From Parapedobacter composti (GTDB lineage: Bacteria; Bacteroidota; Bacteroidia; Sphingobacteriales; Sphingobacteriaceae), in the NCBI RefSeq assembly GCF_900112315.1, contig NZ_FOLL01000016.1, positions 1 to 64,000 of the forward strand: 64,000 nt of DNA, written 5' to 3'. A model generated the notes under the pieces. The model had not been told where the DNA came from. It searched no databases and saw nothing but the letters and a program-made list of their open reading frames with translations. The first letter of the stretch is position 1, and every line of letters begins with the position of its first letter. The translations under genes were made by a program, and so were the position numbers. Below are positions 54,469 to 64,000 of the stretch, piece by piece.

Positions 54469-55389
54469 ATGGAGATGACCTTACTGATGATTCGTCCGGC
54501 ACGGTTCGGGTTCAACGCACAGACAGCCGTGAACAATGCGTTTCAGCTGGATAAAGGAGAGGATGCCGCCCGGATACAGCGGCGGGCAGTGGAAGAATTC
54601 GACACCTTCGTAGCATTACTCCGCGGACATGGCATTGACACACTCGTTGTGCAGGACACTGAAGAGCCCCATACACCGGATAGCGTTTTCCCGAACAACT
54701 GGATTTCATTCCACGGAGACGGTACGGCGGTGCTGTATCCGATGTTTGCTGAAAACAGGCGGCTGGAACGTAAGCAAGCGGTATTTGACAAGATACATAA
54801 GCGCTTTTATGTCCGTAAAATAGTCGACTATACTGCTGAAGAAGTACGGGGGAAATACCTTGAGGGCACGGGCAGCATGGTGTTAGATCGAAAGAACCGC
54901 TTGGCCTATGCTTGCCGGTCACCGCGCACGGACCAGGCGCTGCTGGCCCGGTTTTGCAAAGATTTGGGATTCCATGCAATAGCGTTTGATGCATATGATC
55001 AGAACGGTACCGCCATTTACCATACCAATGTTATGATGTCCATTGCTGATCGTTATGCCATTGTGTGTCTTGATGCTATTTCGAAAGCGGATCGCGGGGA
55101 TGTCGTCAACGCTATTGAAAATTCAGGAAAAATCATTATAGCCATCACCCAGGACCAATTGAAGCAATTTGCCGGTAATGTGCTGCAGGTAACCAATACG
55201 CGCGGAGAACGCTACTTGGTTATGTCATCCAGCGCTTATCAGGCATTTGATACGCAGCAGAAAGCGATTCTGGAATCCTACAATCCCCTCATCCATGCGC
55301 GGTTAAACACCATCGAACAATGCGGAGGTGGCAGTGCGCGTTGTATGTTGGCTGAGATTTTTCTGCCGCTTAGGCATGAATCCATTTGA
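54469..55389 (+). CDS. ctlX: CtlX-type citrulline utilisation hydrolase
   Basis: This 306-residue amidinotransferase-superfamily protein starts MTLLMIRPARFGFNAQTAVN and has DSVFPNNWISFHGDG, a LEGTGSMVLDR motif, HTNVMMSIADRYAIVCL and the probable nucleophile C292 in GGSARCMLAEIFLP. It resembles CtlX, reported to hydrolyse citrulline to ornithine. Placement right after an arginine deiminase gene fits an arginine to citrulline to ornithine path without ATP formation. Its end overlaps the convergent desaturase gene by 20 bp. Confidence 0.85.
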   Translation: MEMTLLMIRPARFGFNAQTAVNNAFQLDKGEDAARIQRRAVEEFDTFVALLRGHGIDTLVVQDTEEPHTPDSVFPNNWISFHGDGTAVLYPMFAENRRLERKQAVFDKIHKRFYVRKIVDYTAEEVRGKYLEGTGSMVLDRKNRLAYACRSPRTDQALLARFCKDLGFHAIAFDAYDQNGTAIYHTNVMMSIADRYAIVCLDAISKADRGDVVNAIENSGKIIIAITQDQLKQFAGNVLQVTNTRGERYLVMSSSAYQAFDTQQKAILESYNPLIHARLNTIEQCGGGSARCMLAEIFLPLRHESI

Positions 55390-56365
55390 AGCTGTAGCTT
55401 TTTTCGGGTATGCTCATGCGATCAGCCAGGCGAAGTAAGCGGTCCGGCAGCCGCATGAGGTAATCCCGCGCCCGCTCACCGGCTTCGTTGAGTTCCCGGA
55501 TGGATTCCACTTTCCATTCCCGTAACAGCTCTTTCAGGATATCTACATAATCAACGGCGGTATACACACCCATGCGCTGAGCCGCATCGGAAAAGTGGGC
55601 AAAAGCTTCGCCCTGCGGCTGCCCTGACTCACGAAGCATGTGTGCAGGCATAACAATTTTCTTGCGCATCATGTCTTCGAAAGCGAGCATGACCTCACTG
55701 GCATCCACCTCCATGGCCTTGCTGATGAATGACATGTATGCTTTGGCATGCCGCGCCTCATCGGACGCGATGACGCCGCACATTTTTGCTAACAGCTTAT
55801 CGCCGTCCTTTTTGGCAAGTGCCGCCACACGCCTGTGGGATATGTTGGTTGCCAACTCCTGGAACGAAGTGTAAATAAAATTTCGATAAGGATCATTCCC
55901 GGTACCGATTTCTATGCCGTCTTGCAATAAATACTGGGTTGAAATCTCCATTTCACGCATGTTCACCCGACCGGAAAGATACAGGTATTTGTTGAGCAGG
56001 TCGCCATGGCGGTTTTCTTCAGCGGTCCATGCACGCACCCATTTCATCCACCCCCCTTGCTGGTTTTTGTCAACATCCTCCACCATGGAGAGCCATGATT
56101 CGTACGTCGGCAGGGCTTCTTCGGTGATGGTGTCACCAATCAGCACGGCGACCAAATCATAGGATAATTCCCGTGCGCTTTCCTGTAATTCCTTGACTTC
56201 GTTAAAAAACGTGTCGCGTGAGGCGTCCGGAAGCAGGTCGGCAGGCTGCCACATTTCTTCCACCGGCTTCAGGTATTCGCTCATTTCATTCAGCATGAAG
56301 GGCTCCAGGTAAGCCATTACTTCTTTACGTGATCCTTCGGGTATCTGTTGGTTTATCGCTTGCAT
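55370..56365 (-). CDS. Acyl-ACP desaturase
   Basis: This 331-residue soluble di-iron enzyme of the plant-type FAB2 family introduces a double bond in acyl chains on acyl carrier protein. Two iron-ligand motifs are visible: EENRHGD (residues 116-122) and DEARHAKAY (202-210), the EExxH pattern and its variant. The ATG at 56365 is chosen because a -7 box (56374-56381) lies directly upstream and excludes the earlier start. The redox partner is not in the window. Confidence 0.92.
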   Translation of the reverse strand: MQAINQQIPEGSRKEVMAYLEPFMLNEMSEYLKPVEEMWQPADLLPDASRDTFFNEVKELQESARELSYDLVAVLIGDTITEEALPTYESWLSMVEDVDKNQQGGWMKWVRAWTAEENRHGDLLNKYLYLSGRVNMREMEISTQYLLQDGIEIGTGNDPYRNFIYTSFQELATNISHRRVAALAKKDGDKLLAKMCGVIASDEARHAKAYMSFISKAMEVDASEVMLAFEDMMRKKIVMPAHMLRESGQPQGEAFAHFSDAAQRMGVYTAVDYVDILKELLREWKVESIRELNEAGERARDYLMRLPDRLLRLADRMSIPEKSYSFKWIHA

Positions 56366-56373
56366 ATTTCCTA

Positions 56374-56381
56374 CAAAGGTA
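56374..56381 (-). promoter_or_regulatory. Putative -7 box for the desaturase
   Basis: TACCTTTG on the minus strand lies eight bases before the ATG at 56365, implying a very short leader. Confidence 0.5.
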
Positions 56382-56458
56382 ATCAAATGCCCCGACAATA
56401 TTTTTTTAACAATCGATATATATTCAAAATATGACAAGAATCATATTTTTTTTCCGTG

Positions 56459-56466
56459 TAATTTTG
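56459..56466 (+). promoter_or_regulatory. Putative -7 box for the Nudix gene
   Basis: TAATTTTG matches TAnnTTTG and leaves a leader of about 60 bases before the ATG at 56532. Confidence 0.45.
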
Positions 56467-56531
56467 GGCGTATGCGGCCGATATACTAACACGTCGCAGG
56501 TGATTTGGTTTAAAAAAAAGCTGGTTTACTA

Positions 56532-56990
56532 ATGGGAAAATTCAATGTCCGCGTCTACGGAATATTAATCAATGGTGATAACAATGTATTAATCAGCGAT
56601 GAACGCGAATACGGGATGGAGTTCAGCAAATTTCCCGGTGGCGGACTAGAGTACGGAGAAGGATTGGGGGATGGGTTGAAGCGCGAATTTAAGGAAGAGT
56701 GCGGGATTGATATCGATATCCTCCGCCATATCCATACAACTGACGTATTCGTAAAATCAGCGTTCAACGATAGTCAGGTTATCGGTGTATATTATCTGGT
56801 AAAAAGCACGCAGCACCTTGATTGCCGCATGGGCAGCCGGCGTTTTGATTTTGAAGACGGAAAGGAACCAGACCAAGTGTTCCGTTGGGTTCCGGTAAGC
56901 AACCTGGATATACAGGATTTGACTTTTGAAATAGATCGTATGGCTTGGCGGGTTTTTGTAGCATCTTCAGAAGGCCGCCCACGGATGTGA
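56532..56990 (+). CDS. Nudix hydrolase
   Basis: This 152-residue protein carries a complete Nudix box between residues 37 and 59, with the order G(x5)E(x7)REF(K)EECG; the glutamates of REFKEEC bind the metal. It hydrolyses a nucleoside diphosphate linked to some group, but the substrate cannot be told from sequence. There is no signal peptide. It converges with the small XRE gene, whose stop lies 14 bp downstream. Confidence 0.9.
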   Translation: MGKFNVRVYGILINGDNNVLISDEREYGMEFSKFPGGGLEYGEGLGDGLKREFKEECGIDIDILRHIHTTDVFVKSAFNDSQVIGVYYLVKSTQHLDCRMGSRRFDFEDGKEPDQVFRWVPVSNLDIQDLTFEIDRMAWRVFVASSEGRPRM

Positions 56991-57004
56991 ATTGAAGATC
57001 ACCT

Positions 57005-57235
57005 TTACGGTTTTGAAAAGTCAAAGACTTCATTCATGGAAACCTTTAATGCCTGCGCTATCTGATAGACAATGAATGAAGAAGGATTCACCCTTCCGTT
57101 TTCGATTCTGCCTAGGGCTTGGTAGTCTTTGTCAATAAGAGCACCTAATTCTGGTTGTGTTAACTTACGTTCCTCACGGAGCGACTTTATGCGTTTTCCA
57201 AGATTTCTCTTAAACTTCTCCAAGTCTTCGTCCAT
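57005..57235 (-). CDS. Small XRE-family regulator
   Basis: This 76-residue protein is essentially one XRE helix-turn-helix domain, with LREERKLTQPELGALIDKDYQALGRIE (given in part) as the recognition region and ENGRVNPSSFIVYQIAQAL after it. It probably binds DNA as a dimer. A 38-bp perfect palindrome lies 24 bp upstream of its ATG and extends into the promoter of the divergent susC operon, so it may repress both itself and that operon. The size fits C-protein-like or plasmid-type controllers, but no restriction genes are present. Confidence 0.88.
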   Translation of the reverse strand: MDEDLEKFKRNLGKRIKSLREERKLTQPELGALIDKDYQALGRIENGRVNPSSFIVYQIAQALKVSMNEVFDFSKP

Positions 57236-57259
57236 TCAGACCAAAAAAAGAATAATTTT

Positions 57260-57297
57260 AAAAAACAAACCAAACAAATTTGTTTGGTTTGTTTTTT
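57260..57297. promoter_or_regulatory. 38-bp perfect palindrome, probable operator
   Basis: AAAAAACAAACCAAACAAA is followed at once by its exact reverse complement, with no spacer (centre between 57278 and 57279). The forward promoter's -33 TTG lies inside the right arm. Such a site between divergent genes is well suited to binding the XRE dimer, probably as two adjacent sites. Confidence 0.75.
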
Positions 57298-57309
57298 GTC
57301 TTATATTTG
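57280..57309 (+). promoter_or_regulatory. Promoter of the short-ORF/SusCD operon
   Basis: TTG at 57280-57282 and TATATTTG at 57302-57309 are 19 bp apart, an excellent match to the Bacteroidota pattern. The -33 element sits within the palindrome, so repressor binding would block it. The transcript would start near 57314. Confidence 0.65.
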
Positions 57310-57365
57310 TTATAAGTAACGTAGTTGTTTGATTTCACAACCAGTTGTTAATCCTAATTGAAAAA

Positions 57366-57443
57366 ATGTCTACGACTTACGTTTTCATCGATCAGAACAG
57401 GCCGGTAAAGGCGCTTGAAAAGGTTGCTCCTCCGCCAGAATGA
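57366..57443 (+). CDS. Short ORF 1 (25 codons) in the SusCD leader
   Basis: ATG at 57366 to TGA at 57441-57443 encodes 25 residues beginning MSTTYVFIDQNR and ending KVAPPPE. It is the first ORF of the predicted transcript, about 50 bases from its start. I recognise no family. It may be a regulatory leader peptide, a small product or chance. Confidence 0.35.
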   Translation: MSTTYVFIDQNRPVKALEKVAPPPE

Positions 57444-57568
57444 TTTCAGCTAGTACACTGAGCTCAATAGCGGGTTGGTAAATCTGCTGTTAACAGCGAG
57501 AGTGGCTAAAACAATTAACCTTCTAAATTAAAATTAACCATTTTTTGCCCTATTAAAATTACCTAATT

Positions 57569-57658
57569 ATGACAACAAACAGACCATCTTTTCGCCGGGG
57601 CATGCACCCCCGGCCACTGGCCAGCTTCCAGAGACAGCCATCAATGACCAGTACCTAA
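57569..57658 (+). CDS. Short ORF 2 (29 codons) in the SusCD leader
   Basis: ATG at 57569 to TAA at 57656-57658 encodes 29 residues, very basic and without acidic residues (starts MTTNRPSFRRGMH, arginine- and proline-rich). It lies between short ORF 1 and susC. Similar opening residues (M-S/T-T-T/N) to ORF 1 are noted but may be chance. The function is unknown. Confidence 0.35.
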   Translation: MTTNRPSFRRGMHPRPLASFQRQPSMTST

Positions 57659-57757
57659 CCATCTCTATTGAAGTACTTGGGCTCGGTTGAGTTTTTTAAC
57701 CGGGTTGAGTAGGCGATCAAACGGATTGCTTGTAGTTTATATTGCTTAAATGTTTTA

Positions 57758-57777
57758 GTTACGCTATCGTGCGTAAC
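57758..57777 (+). repeat. Inverted repeat before susC
   Basis: GTTACGC (57758-57764) and GCGTAAC (57771-57777) form a perfect 7-bp hairpin around TATCGT. A T-run (ATTTTTTT) begins about 14 bases later, too far for a normal terminator. It lies 34 bp before the susC ATG and could affect its expression. Confidence 0.45.
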
Positions 57778-57811
57778 GTTGGCACATTCATTTTTTTAAC
57801 CATTAAAAATT

Positions 57812-60800
57812 ATGAGAATTATTGGAATTCTATTCTTATTGTTATTCCATGGTGTGTGTATGGCCCAAACGAAACGTGTTTCGGGTGTTGTGAAGGACGC
57901 TGCTGCAGGGACTGTGCTAGGTGGTGTAAGCCTGACCGTGCAGGGAAAGGCCGGCACTGTCCAGACCGACGCCAATGGAGAATTTTCTGTCGAGGCAGCT
58001 GTCGGCGACACCCTTATTTTCTCATTCGTCGGCAAACTGCCGGTACATGAGGCCGTAGGGGCTCGGAACGTGTTGGAAATTCTGATGTATGACGATGAGA
58101 GCCAGTTGGATGAGGTGACGGTGGTAGCGTTCGGCACACAAAAGAAGACGAGCGTCGTGGGATCGATTACCACGGTAAAGGCATCCGATCTGAGGATACC
58201 GTCTGCTAATTTAACCAGTTCGTTTGCAGGCCGGATACCGGGAATGATATCTTTTCAGACAACGGGCGAGCCGGGGGCTGATAACGCACAGTTCTTTATC
58301 CGGGGCGTTACCACGTTTGGTTACCAAACGTCGCCGCTTATTTTGATTGACGGTTTTGAAGCTTCTACCGATGCGCTTGCGCGGCTACGGCCTGATGATA
58401 TTGAGAGTTTCTCGATTTTGAAAGATGCGTCGGCCACGGTGCTCTATGGTGCCCGCGGTGCAAACGGTATCATCATGGTGACCACCAAATCCGGGCGTGA
58501 AGGTCCGGTTCAGGTTTTTGCACGGGTAGATTACAATTTGTCCATGCCGGTACAGATGACCAAATTAGTTGATGGTATAGAATATATGCGCCTCTATAAC
58601 GAGGCTCGTACAACCCGGGATCCCGTATTGGGTCCGTTTTATAGCGAACAAAAGATTCAATCTACCATGCGAGGAGTAGACCCGATGCTCTACCCCAATG
58701 TCGACTGGCAGGAGACGCTGTTCAACAATTCGACCAACAACTACAGGTCAAACGTGAGTCTTTCGGGAGGTGGACAGGTGGCCAACTACTATGTTTCGGC
58801 CGGTTGGGAGAAAGAAACCGGACTTTTAAAGGTTGATCAACGCAACAATTTCAATAATAATATAGATATCAACAGAGCCTTTATCCGTTCTAATGTTATT
58901 TTCAAGCTCACGCCTACCACCACGCTGGATACCCGGATTCAGGGACAGTTCGAACGTTATACTGGCCCTTACGTATCCGCCACAGATATCTTCAATGAGG
59001 TCATGTACAGTAATCCCGTGGATTTCCCTGCAGTTTACCAGCCTGATGCGGCCAATCAATTCGTTAAACATACACTGTTCGGTAATGCCTGGGTTCAAGG
59101 AGCGCTGAAGCCAAATCCCTACGCCACCATGGTGAGAGGGTATGAAGACCGCAACGATAGCCGGCTCACAACACAGGCGACGTTGATGCAGGATTTGAAA
59201 TTCATTACCGAAGGGTTGAAGTTCCAGGGACGGATATCTGCTAATATCTGGAGTCGGTATTCCAGCAGAAGAACTTATAATCCCTTCTTCTATTCTTTGG
59301 AAAGCTATAATCAGGTGACGGGCGATTATACACTTTATGCATTGAATCCCAACACGGGGTCGGCTTTTCTTGGTGACGTTATCCCAGGACGTAACGCCGA
59401 TGGCCACTATTATTTTGAAGCTCGTTTCAACTGGGACCGTATGTTCGGAAAGCATACCGTGGGCTTGATGACAGTGGGGATGATGGAGGAAAAGTTGCTC
59501 ACCGACGGTAACAGTACATCAATTTACGAAACGTTGCCGGAGCGGAACATGGGAAACTCCGGGCGGTTCACTTACGATTTTGATAACCGGTATTTTCTGG
59601 AGTTTGCCTATGGCTATAACGGTTCGGAGAAATTTGACGGATCCAAACGATACGGTTTCTTCCCGTCCATAGGCGGTGGCTGGATGGTTTCCAATGAGTC
59701 GTTCTTTGAGCCGCTCAGCAACCTTTTCAGTACGTTGAAGCTTCGCGCAACTTGGGGGCTGGTCGGTAACGACGCGATTGCCAGTCGGGCTGGTCGTTTC
59801 TTTTATTTGTCGGATATCGGCCTCACGGGGGGCACCAATACCACAACGAACGGATATCGATGGGGCACTAATTTCATGAATGCTTACAGTGGATATTACA
59901 TTAACCGGTATGCCAATTCCGACATTACCTGGGAGGTTTCCGAGAAAATCAATTTGGGATTGGAATTCGGTTTGTTTAACGAAGCGCTTCAGATTCAGGG
60001 CGATTTTTTCAGGGATATCCGGAGCAATATTTACATGGTTCGCCAGAATTTTCCTGCCACGGCTGGTTTGGAAGCGAGCATCAGCGGAAATGTGGGCAAG
60101 GCGGCATCCCAGGGTTTTGATGGTTCTATCAGTTACCAACATTTCTTCAATAATGAATTTTGGTTAAACGGGCGGGCTAATTTCACCTATGCGACTAACG
60201 AATACCTTGAACTCGACGAGCGGGATTACCCAGACAGGTACCTGAGCCAACTGGGGCATAATATCAACCAGCAATGGGGATTGGTCGCTGAGCGCCTGTT
60301 TGTGGACGAAGCTGAAATCGCCAATTCACCTTTACAGGATTTCGGAGAATACATGGCTGGCGATATTAAATACAAGGATATCAATGGCGATGGTATTATC
60401 AATGCTAATGACCGCGTGCCCTTAGGCTTCCCCACTGTGCCGGAAGTCCAGTATGGCTTTGGTCTATCAGCAGGTATAAAGCGATTTGATTTCTCGTTTT
60501 TCTTCCAGGGCAATAGCCGAGTATCATTTTTTATCAATCCCGGAGTGGGCGGGGGGGGCGAGGGGGATGAAGGCATTGCGCCGTTTGTTCTTCGCCGCAA
60601 TGCGCTGGCTGTTGTGGCAAGGGACTATTGGACAGAAACTAATCCCAATGTGCATGCGTTTTGGCCAAGACTGTCCACAGATCCCATTACCAATAACCTT
60701 CAGCAGTCGTCTTGGTGGCTCCGTGATGGGTCGTTCATGCGGCTGAAGCAGGTGGAAATCGGCTACAGTCCCAAAGGTTTGAAACGTATCGGGCTGGGTG

Positions 60801-60940
60801 AGGGTACGCGTATCTACTTGATCGCTGAGAACCCATTGGTGTTCAGTAGGTTCAAATTGTGGGATCCGGAGATGGGGAGGCGTGGACTACGCTATCCGCC
60901 GAACAAAAGGTTTAATATAGGAATGCAGGTGTCGCTTTAA
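57812..60940 (+). CDS. SusC/RagA family TonB-dependent outer-membrane transporter
   Basis: This 1042-residue protein imports large ligands, usually glycans, across the outer membrane using TonB energy. It has a signal peptide (IIGILFLLLFHGVCMAQ), a carboxypeptidase-regulatory-like domain (residues about 22-95), a TonB-box-like segment followed by the plug (KTSVVGSITTVKASDLR; ILKDASATVLYGARGANGII), and a 22-strand-type barrel ending RYPPNKRFNIGMQVSL. susD follows after two bases. No extracytoplasmic sigma or anti-sigma pair lies in front; instead an XRE gene and a palindrome do, which is unusual for a SusC locus. Confidence 0.95.
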   Translation: MRIIGILFLLLFHGVCMAQTKRVSGVVKDAAAGTVLGGVSLTVQGKAGTVQTDANGEFSVEAAVGDTLIFSFVGKLPVHEAVGARNVLEILMYDDESQLDEVTVVAFGTQKKTSVVGSITTVKASDLRIPSANLTSSFAGRIPGMISFQTTGEPGADNAQFFIRGVTTFGYQTSPLILIDGFEASTDALARLRPDDIESFSILKDASATVLYGARGANGIIMVTTKSGREGPVQVFARVDYNLSMPVQMTKLVDGIEYMRLYNEARTTRDPVLGPFYSEQKIQSTMRGVDPMLYPNVDWQETLFNNSTNNYRSNVSLSGGGQVANYYVSAGWEKETGLLKVDQRNNFNNNIDINRAFIRSNVIFKLTPTTTLDTRIQGQFERYTGPYVSATDIFNEVMYSNPVDFPAVYQPDAANQFVKHTLFGNAWVQGALKPNPYATMVRGYEDRNDSRLTTQATLMQDLKFITEGLKFQGRISANIWSRYSSRRTYNPFFYSLESYNQVTGDYTLYALNPNTGSAFLGDVIPGRNADGHYYFEARFNWDRMFGKHTVGLMTVGMMEEKLLTDGNSTSIYETLPERNMGNSGRFTYDFDNRYFLEFAYGYNGSEKFDGSKRYGFFPSIGGGWMVSNESFFEPLSNLFSTLKLRATWGLVGNDAIASRAGRFFYLSDIGLTGGTNTTTNGYRWGTNFMNAYSGYYINRYANSDITWEVSEKINLGLEFGLFNEALQIQGDFFRDIRSNIYMVRQNFPATAGLEASISGNVGKAASQGFDGSISYQHFFNNEFWLNGRANFTYATNEYLELDERDYPDRYLSQLGHNINQQWGLVAERLFVDEAEIANSPLQDFGEYMAGDIKYKDINGDGIINANDRVPLGFPTVPEVQYGFGLSAGIKRFDFSFFFQGNSRVSFFINPGVGGGGEGDEGIAPFVLRRNALAVVARDYWTETNPNVHAFWPRLSTDPITNNLQQSSWWLRDGSFMRLKQVEIGYSPKGLKRIGLGEGTRIYLIAENPLVFSRFKLWDPEMGRRGLRYPPNKRFNIGMQVSL

Positions 60941-60942
60941 TC

Positions 60943-62919
60943 ATGAAAATACAAATGAAGACGTTATTGAAAGTTGGACTATTGGTGTGTGCGGCTTTGG
61001 TGTCGCAGTCATGCACGAAATTCCTTGATGTCGTACCAGACAACACCATGACCCTGGAAGATCTTTTTGATACCCGGGAAACGGCCTATGAGGCTTTGGC
61101 TAGGGTCTATAATTACATTCCTAGGGACGACAATACCCACTCGACAACCTGGACGCTGGGCGATGAATGGGTTGGCCGGTTGGATCTCAACAATACCGTA
61201 GGAAACTTAAGGGCTATTCGGATCATGCGGGGGTTACAGAGCGCTACGAGCCCGCAACTGGGGGCTTGGTCGGGTACCCAGGGAACTAAAAGCTTATATG
61301 AGGGGATTCGCCAGTGTGATGTTTTTTTGCAAAATATTCACCTGGTACGCGATATGGGTGACGGTGAGAAAGCGGAGTGGACTGCTCAGGTCAAGTTCCT
61401 GAAAGGGTACTACGCGTTTTTATTGGTACAGCGATACGGCCCTATCGTGTTGCCCAGGGAAATGGTTACGCCGGAAGCCACGCGTGAACAACTGTTTTTA
61501 CCACGGTCCAAGGTCGAGGAATGTTTTGCGTATATTCTGGCGCTCATGGACGAAGCTATCCCCAGCCTCACCGAGCGGACCACTGAAAATAATATGGGAC
61601 AAATCGATCAGGTGGTAGCGAAGGCGATAAAAGCTCGGGTGCTGTTCTTTAGGGCGAGCCCGTTCTTCAACGGTAATCGGGAATACTTCGGTGATTTCCT
61701 AGACCGCGATGGTCAACCGTTCTTTCCGTTGGATTATGACAACGAAAAATGGAAACAAGCCCTTGATGCGATTAATGAAGCCATCATCCTATGCGAGCAG
61801 AATGGGTTGGGCATTTACCATTTCGAGCGGGAGCCGTTCATCTATGATCGCCAAGCGTTTGAAGAAAATGGCGAGAATATGCGTACATTGTATGATTTGC
61901 GCATGCTTATCTGCGACCCTTGGAATAGGGAGTTGGTATGGGGGTATTCAAACCATGATTTCTATAATCAGGGGGAACTTGCTCATTCCACCAATATCCG
62001 GCTGCCGGCGGGATATGGCGACGGGGTGATTAATACGGCGGCTTATTCTTGGCAATGGATGGCCGCTACTTACCGTATGGCGGAGCGTTATTATACGCGT
62101 AACGGCTTGCCCATTGACGAAGACTTGACGTTCAACATGAATACCATGCATGAACTTACCCGGACACCGGGAGTGCTTGACCCTGAATATAAAGCAATGA
62201 ACGGTATTATGCAACCAGGGGCAGAGACCATCAACTTATACTTGAACCGCGAACCACGGTTCTACGCCAACTTGGGAATCACTGGGGGGTATTGGAGAGC
62301 TCATACCGTGAGGATTAACACGATGATGTATGCTGGTGCCGACGGCGGATACAATTCTTCCACGCATGCCACAGACTTCCTGTCTACCGGTATAGGCATA
62401 CAGAAACTTGTACACCCCGAGTCTCAATCCAACGCTTGGCAACGGGTGATACGGTTTCCATACCCCTTGATGCGCATGGCTGATCTTTATTTGATGAAGG
62501 CCGAAGCGCTTAATGAGTACAATGCCGCGCCGACACAGGAAGTATATAACGCGGTTAATTTGGTGCGTGAGCGGGCAGGCATACCGAATGTAGAAGTGGT
62601 TTGGTCAGATCCGAGTTTGGCACGGACCGTCAATAAACACCTAACCAAAGAAGGTATGCGTGATATCATTCTTGACGAACGTGCTGTTGAGTTTGCCTTT
62701 GAAGGCCAACATTTCTGGGATATGTGGAGGCATAAACGGGCTGTTGCTGAGTTTTCATCTCCGGTTTGGGGATGGACGCATACCGGCACCACGGGTGAGA
62801 CGTTTTTTGTGTTGGAAGTGAAGCAAGCGAGGCGTTTTACGATAACCGATTACCTGTGGCCCATTGATTTGAATGAACTGAATACTAACGGAAACCTGAT
62901 ACAAAACCCAGGATGGTAA
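60943..62919 (+). CDS. SusD/RagB family surface lipoprotein
   Basis: This 658-residue partner of SusC forms the lid that binds the ligand at the cell surface. It has a lipoprotein signal with VCAALVSQSCTKFLDVVPDN (cysteine lipidation site before TKFLD), tetratricopeptide-like helices, and the C-terminal RERAGIPNVEVV, DERAVEFAFEGQHFWDMWR and YLWPIDLNELNTN typical of the family. The gene starts two bases after susC and is therefore co-translated. Confidence 0.94.
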   Translation: MKIQMKTLLKVGLLVCAALVSQSCTKFLDVVPDNTMTLEDLFDTRETAYEALARVYNYIPRDDNTHSTTWTLGDEWVGRLDLNNTVGNLRAIRIMRGLQSATSPQLGAWSGTQGTKSLYEGIRQCDVFLQNIHLVRDMGDGEKAEWTAQVKFLKGYYAFLLVQRYGPIVLPREMVTPEATREQLFLPRSKVEECFAYILALMDEAIPSLTERTTENNMGQIDQVVAKAIKARVLFFRASPFFNGNREYFGDFLDRDGQPFFPLDYDNEKWKQALDAINEAIILCEQNGLGIYHFEREPFIYDRQAFEENGENMRTLYDLRMLICDPWNRELVWGYSNHDFYNQGELAHSTNIRLPAGYGDGVINTAAYSWQWMAATYRMAERYYTRNGLPIDEDLTFNMNTMHELTRTPGVLDPEYKAMNGIMQPGAETINLYLNREPRFYANLGITGGYWRAHTVRINTMMYAGADGGYNSSTHATDFLSTGIGIQKLVHPESQSNAWQRVIRFPYPLMRMADLYLMKAEALNEYNAAPTQEVYNAVNLVRERAGIPNVEVVWSDPSLARTVNKHLTKEGMRDIILDERAVEFAFEGQHFWDMWRHKRAVAEFSSPVWGWTHTGTTGETFFVLEVKQARRFTITDYLWPIDLNELNTNGNLIQNPGW

Positions 62920-62941
62920 TCCCACAATTAATAGGAAAGTT

Positions 62942-64000
62942 ATGAACATAAGGAAATATATTGCAATGGGAGCGGCTTTGCTGCTTATCGTTGGAGCCTG
63001 CAAGGAGGAAAACCGATACGCAAGCCATGTGTCCGATGGGGTTGCTCCAGGCAAGATTACCATAGTAGACCATAAGCCATTATACGGGGGCGCACGGTTT
63101 TTTTATGATTTGCCGGCAGATGAAGATTTGCTTCAGGTAGAGGCTGTCTATACCGCCAAAAATGGGAAGTCCTATACCTTTTCGGCCTCCTATTTTGTTG
63201 ACTCGTTGGATGTGTACGGATTCGGAAGTACTGATCCGCATGAAGTTAAATTGTATGCGGTAGATCGTTCTGGAAATCGATCCGAGGCGGTTACCGTGTC
63301 AGTAACACCCTTGGAACCTGCCTTCAGCCGAGTTGCTTCGTCTATAGAGGTGAAGCCTGGATTCAGTTCATTCTTCCTGGATTGGATCAATGAATTGCAG
63401 CAAAACGTGAATGTGTATGTCGACTATAGTTTTACACTCAATGGGCAACACCGGGAGTTGACGACTGTGTTTTCGTCCAACTTGGCTGAAGACCGAAGGT
63501 TTATCAATGATCTCTTCCTTTCACCTCAGGATGAAGTACGTATACGCGTACGGGTAGAGGATAGATTTGGTAACATTACCGAACCTATAGATATGGGCGC
63601 GATTACCTTGTATGAAGATATCGAAATTCCGAAGGGCAACTGGACATTGCCCAATGCCAATGACAGTATAGGGGGGGTGCCCATGTGTTTCGGGGACGGC
63701 TTGGAGGGGCGGTCCGCAAAGGTAATCGACGGAATCATCGACCGCGGGGACAACCTTAACTTCATGCATACCCATAGCCGCGGCCGTACCGGGCGGACAG
63801 CCGACGGCAATATGCCATGGAATTTTATCATTGACTTGGGCGATTATTATGAACTGAGCCGTATCGTTACGGTGCAACGGCATTCGGGGGGCTTAGCCAA
63901 TATCAATCGGGGGCAATATTATCAGTCGGAAAACGTGGGGATGTATAATATGTATGTATGGGATGACGATACAGATCAATGGGTATTTATCTCACAACAT
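62942..64000 (+). CDS. DUF4959-type surface lipoprotein (cut by window end)
   Basis: The open frame of 353 codons starts at 62942, 22 bp after susD, and is open at the right edge. It begins with a lipoprotein signal (LLLIVGACKEENRYASH; lipidation at the cysteine), followed by beta-rich domains with SHVSDGVAPGKITIVDHKPL, as in DUF4959/DUF5126 proteins, and later a galactose-binding-like region (WNFIIDLGDYYELSRIVTVQR) as in DUF5000. Such proteins accompany SusC/SusD and probably bind glycans at the surface. The C-terminal end is missing only because the window stops. Confidence 0.85.
   Translation, partial: MNIRKYIAMGAALLLIVGACKEENRYASHVSDGVAPGKITIVDHKPLYGGARFFYDLPADEDLLQVEAVYTAKNGKSYTFSASYFVDSLDVYGFGSTDPHEVKLYAVDRSGNRSEAVTVSVTPLEPAFSRVASSIEVKPGFSSFFLDWINELQQNVNVYVDYSFTLNGQHRELTTVFSSNLAEDRRFINDLFLSPQDEVRIRVRVEDRFGNITEPIDMGAITLYEDIEIPKGNWTLPNANDSIGGVPMCFGDGLEGRSAKVIDGIIDRGDNLNFMHTHSRGRTGRTADGNMPWNFIIDLGDYYELSRIVTVQRHSGGLANINRGQYYQSENVGMYNMYVWDDDTDQWVFISQH

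Follow-up and report, generated by a model that had tools for sequence, protein, structure and literature searches.

The window, as we call the whole 64-kb stretch of DNA analysed here, ends in a SusC/SusD transport operon that is probably controlled by a small, divergently encoded XRE protein. Judged from sequence, a dimer of this protein is likely to bind a perfect 38-bp palindrome between the two transcription units and to repress both the susC/susD/DUF4959 operon and its own gene. SusC/SusD loci rank among the chief nutrient-uptake systems of Bacteroidota, and their regulation is as a rule ascribed to hybrid two-component systems, SusR or ECF sigma factors. None of these was found beside susC in a Pfam scan reaching back to position 54469; a regulator of these kinds encoded elsewhere could still contribute. 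The initial annotation had proposed a dedicated repressor switch, and this proposal is well supported by comparison: the place of the operator is conserved, its bases match the recognition helix, the site is unique in the genome, and the locus has a counterpart in Sphingobacterium chuzhouense. An assignment to the single-domain XRE autorepressors, with a logic like that of CylR2 and the C proteins, is likewise well supported, and the SusC operon would be an unusual target for this kind of regulator.

The XRE protein, its presumed operator and the divergent promoters

The locus comprises the following features.

57005..57235, minus strand: XRE gene; 76-aa product with a single HTH domain (Pfam HTH_3, 5.5e-13) and without a ligand-binding domain
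57236..57278, minus strand: putative weak promoter for the XRE gene, divergent from that of susC, with the minus-strand TTTG of the left half-site; aligned in 28 loci
57260..57297, no strand: perfect palindrome of 38 bp, presumed XRE operator; conserved core of ~22 bp, centre between 57278 and 57279
57279..57309, plus strand: Bacteroidota-type promoter TTTG-N19-TATATTTG toward susC, with the -33 element inside the operator; TAnnTTTG equivalent in 25 of 31 XRE loci
57366..57443, plus strand: micro-ORF1 (MSTTYVFIDQNRPVKALEKVAPPPE), 25 codons; weak to moderate candidate for a leader peptide in the ...P-(E/D/V)-stop class
57569..57658, plus strand: micro-ORF2, 29 codons, probably not a gene; holds the hairpin GCCGGGG...CCCCGGC
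57812..60940, plus strand: susC, SusC-type TonB-dependent transporter (Pfam Plug, CarbopepD_reg_2)
60943..62919, plus strand: SusD family lipoprotein (Pfam SusD_RagB, 1.4e-49)
62942..64000, plus strand: DUF4959/DUF5126 protein (Pfam), third in the presumed operon, extending past the window end

Direct reading of the sequence agrees with the initial annotation that a 24-bp gap separates the XRE ATG from a spacerless 38-bp palindrome (19+19 arms), that a forward -33/-7 promoter with 19-bp spacing has its -33 element within this palindrome (TTTG at 57279-57282 in the right half, then TATATTTG at 57302-57309), and that two short ORFs of 25 and 29 codons lie ahead of susC. The genes for a SusC receptor and then a SusD protein, as identified by Pfam, make up a SusC/SusD transport operon. 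On the other side, the neighbours back to 54469 encode the XRE protein, a NUDIX protein, a desaturase and a DDAH-family protein (Pfam). A search of a plasmid collection returned zero matches.

The palindrome is far beyond chance expectation. As against the 19 bp observed, the longest arm was 9 in 500 dinucleotide shuffles of the 576-bp intergenic region and 12 in 2000 shuffles of the local 95 bp, and the runner-up among the perfect spacerless palindromes of the 64-kb window has arms of 9. Only about 22 bp of the palindrome (AACCAAACAAATNTGTTTGGTT) are common to the two nearest relatives, the part beyond being an A-run/T-run extension. Within the genome itself, an assembly of 61 contigs with 99.64% completeness, the 18-bp operator core is unique at up to two mismatches, and the number of places with three mismatches, 11, is the same as that obtained with a reversed control pattern. 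A multi-site regulon of palindromes of the same strength was rejected, as the own genome holds a single operator.

The AlphaFold model of the XRE protein is confident (pLDDT 95.0), and its nearest folds in Foldseek are C.BclI, ClgR and C.AhdI (for the C proteins, best E 2.9e-4 and query TM ~0.8-0.9). Among the solved sequences nearest to it, 3ivp comes first and CylR2 second (7.3e-7). With one HTH_3 domain, the XRE fold and a length within the ~65-80 aa of the class, the protein has the domain make-up of an autorepressor. Close XRE proteins are encoded by 42 of 399 family genomes (own included, E<=1e-12), and a match was found in 2 of the 295 genomes of a class-wide sample (own included, E<=1e-14); two of the 16 named XRE loci, in Membranihabitans and Litoribacter, lie outside the usual genera of the family. 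The XRE proteins of S. chuzhouense and Olivibacter are 83% and 85% identical to that of the window, and the three loci can be aligned across the XRE start, the operator and the -7 element.

An AAACAAA-type half-site is present in 31 of the 33 XRE loci measured, with one change in L066 and L077 and on one side only in L085. For the two other loci, L082 and L091, the measuring script returned no operator, the core of the latter being visible in a separate reading. Measured from the XRE ATG, the operator centre lies at 38-46 bp in every one of the 31 except L006 (55 bp). At all 31 loci whose operator could be read, we found that the identity of the two bases flanking the core tracks the recognition helix, kinship being ignored in this count: G or A before the Arg of the helix is accompanied by CCAAAC (7 of 7 loci), S by CTAAAC on at least one side (12 of 12), and N by GTAAAC on one side (12 of 12), where the other side is mostly GTCAAC. 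These 31 loci are not independent, because the helix classes double as sequence clades, near-duplicate pairs (L078/L079, L080/L081) are counted and the statistics were computed without a tree; common ancestry may thus explain part of the match between helix and operator. Tied to SusC operons across genera and having an operator code that can be read, the bare XRE protein provides a specificity table of helix residue versus operator base.

The TTTG of the half-site occupies the -33 place of a TAnnTTTG promoter. Such a promoter, pointing away from XRE, stands at the expected place in 25 of the 31 loci, 23-26 nt from the operator centre, while the consensus -7 was not at that place in the other six (L065, L070, L071, L080, L081 and L082). 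The XRE-side promoter has the same geometry in the 28 loci aligned, with a poor -7 about 24 nt away and a very short 5' leader; with such a -7, the XRE gene is probably transcribed at a low level, into an mRNA that has almost no leader.

We propose that a dimer of the small XRE protein would bind the palindrome between the two divergent promoters and, because the -33 TTTG of susC and that of XRE itself both lie in the operator, would shut RNA polymerase out of both. The outcome would be autorepression together with dedicated repression of the susC/susD/DUF4959 operon. Since XRE is one bare HTH domain, relief would have to come from dilution or bistability, from a partner or from a small ligand. 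A close described parallel in design is CylR2 of Enterococcus faecalis (PDB 1utx), which, in the part of the report available to us, is a small one-domain XRE protein encoded divergently from its target operon and represses that operon from overlapping divergent promoters (PMC3709268). The window differs from it in the target, a Bacteroidota SusC/SusD operon, and in the type of promoter, and no CylR1-like membrane partner was noticed beside the XRE gene.

Leader RNA and leader peptides

In related loci the same transcript would carry a second layer of control, probably a bistable leader RNA followed by a leader peptide with a conserved C terminus. The RNA, termed R1, is a structured leader of ~160-230 nt (e.g. 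L066, L102, L104, L118 and L124; alignment A5) that precedes TlpA/SusC/SusD operons and some other genes in the family; SusC was found in 14 of the 20 R1 loci whose downstream sequence was retrieved, over a length of at most 8 kb. A covariance model built from eight leaders matched 13 of 35 sources searched (E<0.001), eight of these 13 being its building sequences. Under stricter search filters, R1 was detected in 32 of 121 family genomes, including four from the genus of the window, and in 3 of the 295 genomes of a class-wide sample, all in the family. Standard pairs fill 91.8% of the pair cells across 37 aligned copies, against a mean of 73.5 in shuffles. The covariation score of 0.514 compares with 0.193 for the average shuffle and with no more than 0.115 for slid controls, the alignment having been fitted to the tested structure, which tilts the pair counts toward it. 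Changes on both sides occur in 35 of 41 pairs. In 12 of 12 leaders examined, a count made without a shuffle control, a 3' strand repeats the sequence of the 5' strand and could form 8-19 bp with the middle strand to which the latter pairs; the longest competing-helix match in L084 and L072 is not the GGGGCTGC-type one. Because the 3' strand copies the 5' strand and shares its partner, R1 is probably bistable, with two alternative folds.

A scan of 20 R1 loci yielded no Rfam family at E<=0.1, which sets R1 apart from Pedo-repair RNA (RF01715; PMC2864571), according to the accessible part of its description a structured Pedobacter RNA that Rfam types as cis-regulatory. Among the matches listed in open-licence literature, as far as their accessible text goes, a leader combining R1 and the peptide is undescribed. 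Across the XRE and R1 loci, Rfam returned nothing besides one weak full-length Pedo-repair match of 31.5 bits (gathering score 150) in a leader RNA at L074:1907-2080; it stands at the usual place of R1, and the R1 model has no match in L074.

A short ORF ending in [ASPNKCTRG]-P-[EDVI]-stop lies within 300 nt past R1 in 29 of 38 loci, this motif having been widened after the first examples were seen and the 29 including near-duplicates (e.g. L124/L125) and L113, whose ORF 175 nt on may be chance. In 200 shuffled control sets the mean was 0.7 and the maximum 4. The longer consensus reads L-(F/Y)-(K/Q)-N-(I/L)-I-x-(A/S/P)-P-(E/V/D)-stop, with C termini such as LFKNIIKSPV-stop, LYKNLIKAPE-stop and NLISAPE-stop, and most of the peptides start ~40-55 nt past the end of the R1 model, directly after the terminal hairpin of the RNA. 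Synonymous variation and the use of all four Pro codons and all three stops point to selection on the peptide sequence, in a tally where 4 of 33 rows had mis-picked a later ORF (L102, L126, L078, L084) and six rows were not R1 loci. The peptide is present in 17 of 17 SusC loci versus 1 of 7 others (Fisher p 5e-5; table 17, 1, 0, 6), as compiled by hand for the 24 of 38 loci with known downstream context; L110 was scored as peptide-less, its motif ORF (YIIKSPE-stop) lying farther downstream, beyond the 300-nt limit. When 25 leaders were searched for terminators, the best hairpin with T-run between the peptide and the first gene exceeded all 12 shuffles of its own sequence in seven (L102, L104, L123, L124, L126, L130 and L063), and L117 and L127 have similar hairpins that do not. 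These terminator-like hairpins hint at transcription attenuation.

By analogy with described arrest peptides, the leader peptides of the related loci may arrest ribosomes. According to the part of PMC10987492 available to us, the uA_NSP-stop peptide from Sphingobacteriaceae stalls with the stop codon in the A site, and the Bacteroidota arrest peptides of that study are likewise encoded by short upstream ORFs and share a conserved C-terminal Pro. Those peptides, chosen for an N-terminal signal, stand before secA/secDF, whereas the peptides of R1 loci precede TlpA/SusC/SusD operons, go down to 14-20 aa in length and have Pro in the penultimate position. The RAPP/RGPP uORFs, e.g. CruR of Bordetella pertussis, also place a leader peptide before a TonB-dependent receptor gene, as described in the accessible part of PMC12992588; unlike them, the peptides reported here carry no RAPP/RGPP motif and have a different C terminus. 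R1 would be a further RNA family ahead of SusC operons and its peptide a further class of peptides, by which arrest of the stop-codon type would reach beyond secretion genes to nutrient uptake. Since R1 and the peptide are also found without the XRE gene, the repressor layer and the RNA/peptide layer are separable.

R1 was rejected for the window itself. With filters off, the best score in 57236-57830 was 1.9 bits, on the minus strand, and the own genome gave zero matches at E<=0.001. All 12 Rfam matches to the window leader were far under the gathering score, and Pedo-repair RNA RF01715 was absent from 56900-58000 at E<=1. Because the window lacks R1, it would be at most a stripped-down relative of the leader class, with a second layer reduced to micro-ORF1. 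This class of R1 plus peptide is the novel, apparently undescribed part of the system, and micro-ORF1 is the sole link between it and the window.

The initial annotation had suggested that the two short ORFs encode peptides or form a translated leader. This does not hold for micro-ORF2, which was rejected as a gene: it has no counterpart in the two nearest relatives, lacks the C-terminal motif of the family and holds a GC-rich hairpin. Micro-ORF1 fared somewhat better and is weakly suggestive of a leader peptide. It could encode a leader peptide that arrests translation and so adjusts expression of the susC operon post-initiation, an explanation compatible with repression by XRE and possible, though we give it rather less than even weight. 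Micro-ORF1 ends in KVAPPPE-stop, its ATG aligns with that of a leader ORF in S. chuzhouense, and an in-frame PPE is common to both; the S. chuzhouense ORF is five codons longer, the stop of micro-ORF1 is unshared, and in Olivibacter the reading frame is interrupted. Among 2000 shuffles of the window leader, 16 produced an ORF ending in PE and 71 produced one with the broad motif. At an XRE locus of the same genus (G008) the leader ORF ends in LLANVKCSPE-stop, and Bacteroidota peptides ending in NSP-stop or NAP-stop arrest ribosomes in the available part of PMC10987492. Against arrest speak the one proline that micro-ORF1 has over the consensus and the state of the window leader, which is without R1, is not unusually structured (z -1.36) and contains only a weak terminator-like site at 57709-57733, not above its own shuffles.

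Taken together with the repressor, a two-layer switch can be tentatively drawn for Sphingobacteriaceae, in which a local XRE repressor would be followed by a bistable RNA and an arrest peptide, L(F/Y)KN(I/L)I-x-(A/S/P)-P-(E/V/D)-stop, that gate a SusC-type operon. The window would be a version of this switch with the RNA lost and micro-ORF1 (...APPPE-stop) as the arrest peptide. We regard this combined scheme as doubtful.

Sign of regulation and genes faced by the XRE module

C proteins self-regulate from an inverted repeat and use paired C-boxes. Since they can activate as well as repress, regulation by XRE is probably, but not necessarily, negative. In fold and size, C.BclI, C.AhdI and C.Esp1396I are like the XRE protein of the window, the first two are among its nearest folds, and the two divergent promoters seem to share one operator; XRE could therefore be imagined to activate, or to activate and repress, aiding one promoter from near its -33 and closing the other as the level of XRE rises. 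We consider this improbable. The window has a single operator and not the paired C-boxes of C proteins, a near-consensus -7 of susC combined with a -33 inside the site suits occlusion, and no restriction-modification family was found among the 7 window proteins scanned with Pfam (54469 to 64000). Repression of both transcription units by XRE is the preferred reading.

A SusD orthologue is encoded by 24 of 399 family genomes, and the region upstream of susC was read in 23 of them (20 by pattern script, G014 and G023 by eye; G383 left out). XRE and operator were found only in the own genome and in S. chuzhouense (L087) and were absent from the 21 others. The XRE is evidently not needed for the SusC transporter, because these 21 orthologous regions do without it and its operator. 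In S. chuzhouense the order XRE/operator/SusC/SusD is as in the window and is kept through the third gene, which was matched to DUF4959/DUF5126 by DNA similarity. A search of related genomes for the gene order, which the initial annotation had recommended, thus recovered XRE, operator, SusC and SusD in this one species, with micro-ORF2 unmatched.

Divergent sequence of 10 kb was available for 15 of the 16 named XRE loci (in L101 the sequence ends early), and 7 of the 15 face SusC and SusD. The statement of the initial annotation that SusC loci are not usually under XRE proteins therefore needs qualifying. In six of the seven the SusC type differs from that of the window, and five of these six have a TlpA-like thioredoxin gene ahead of SusC. 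The remaining eight loci face other genes, for example one for a HEPN-domain protein in L097, and the Olivibacter XRE faces an AraC-type regulator (Pfam HTH_18) and genes that by eye only are fimbria-like. Because SusC/SusD and other gene types are faced across loci, XRE and operator are, on this comparative reading, a module that recurs before surface-protein operons and is not bound to the operon of the window.

The same patchiness, with close XRE proteins facing SusCD, TlpA-SusCD, AraC-type, HEPN and other genes and 21 of 23 orthologous susC regions lacking them, would suit a pure self-regulator that drifts between loci and has susC as an incidental neighbour. This is similarly improbable to our judgement, as 25 of 31 loci retain a divergent promoter whose -33 lies in the operator and XRE accompanies the same SusC/D operon in two genera. 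That the palindrome works as an RNA hairpin or terminator and not as an operator is highly improbable: a consensus scan marks it as terminator-like, but it lies upstream of both presumed transcription starts, only 4 of its 18 counted pairs are G-C, and its flanks go with the XRE protein.

Several further observations were made at related XRE loci. Small proteins of ~55-125 aa that look similar by eye are encoded after the XRE-controlled promoter in L076, L077, L078, L083 and L085, the one in L077 being without Pfam match. Beside the G008 XRE locus, L034:3970-4236 holds a CRISPR-like array, with a repeat at 65-66 bp spacing and degenerate copies, and a 363-aa protein without Pfam match is encoded between this array and a sigma-70 region 4 protein. 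Finally, another palindrome resembling the operator, AAACAAATTTGTTT, lies about 450 bp away on the divergent side of the Olivibacter XRE gene (L033), ahead of the AraC-type gene, and is accompanied by TATACTTG at the spacing of a promoter.
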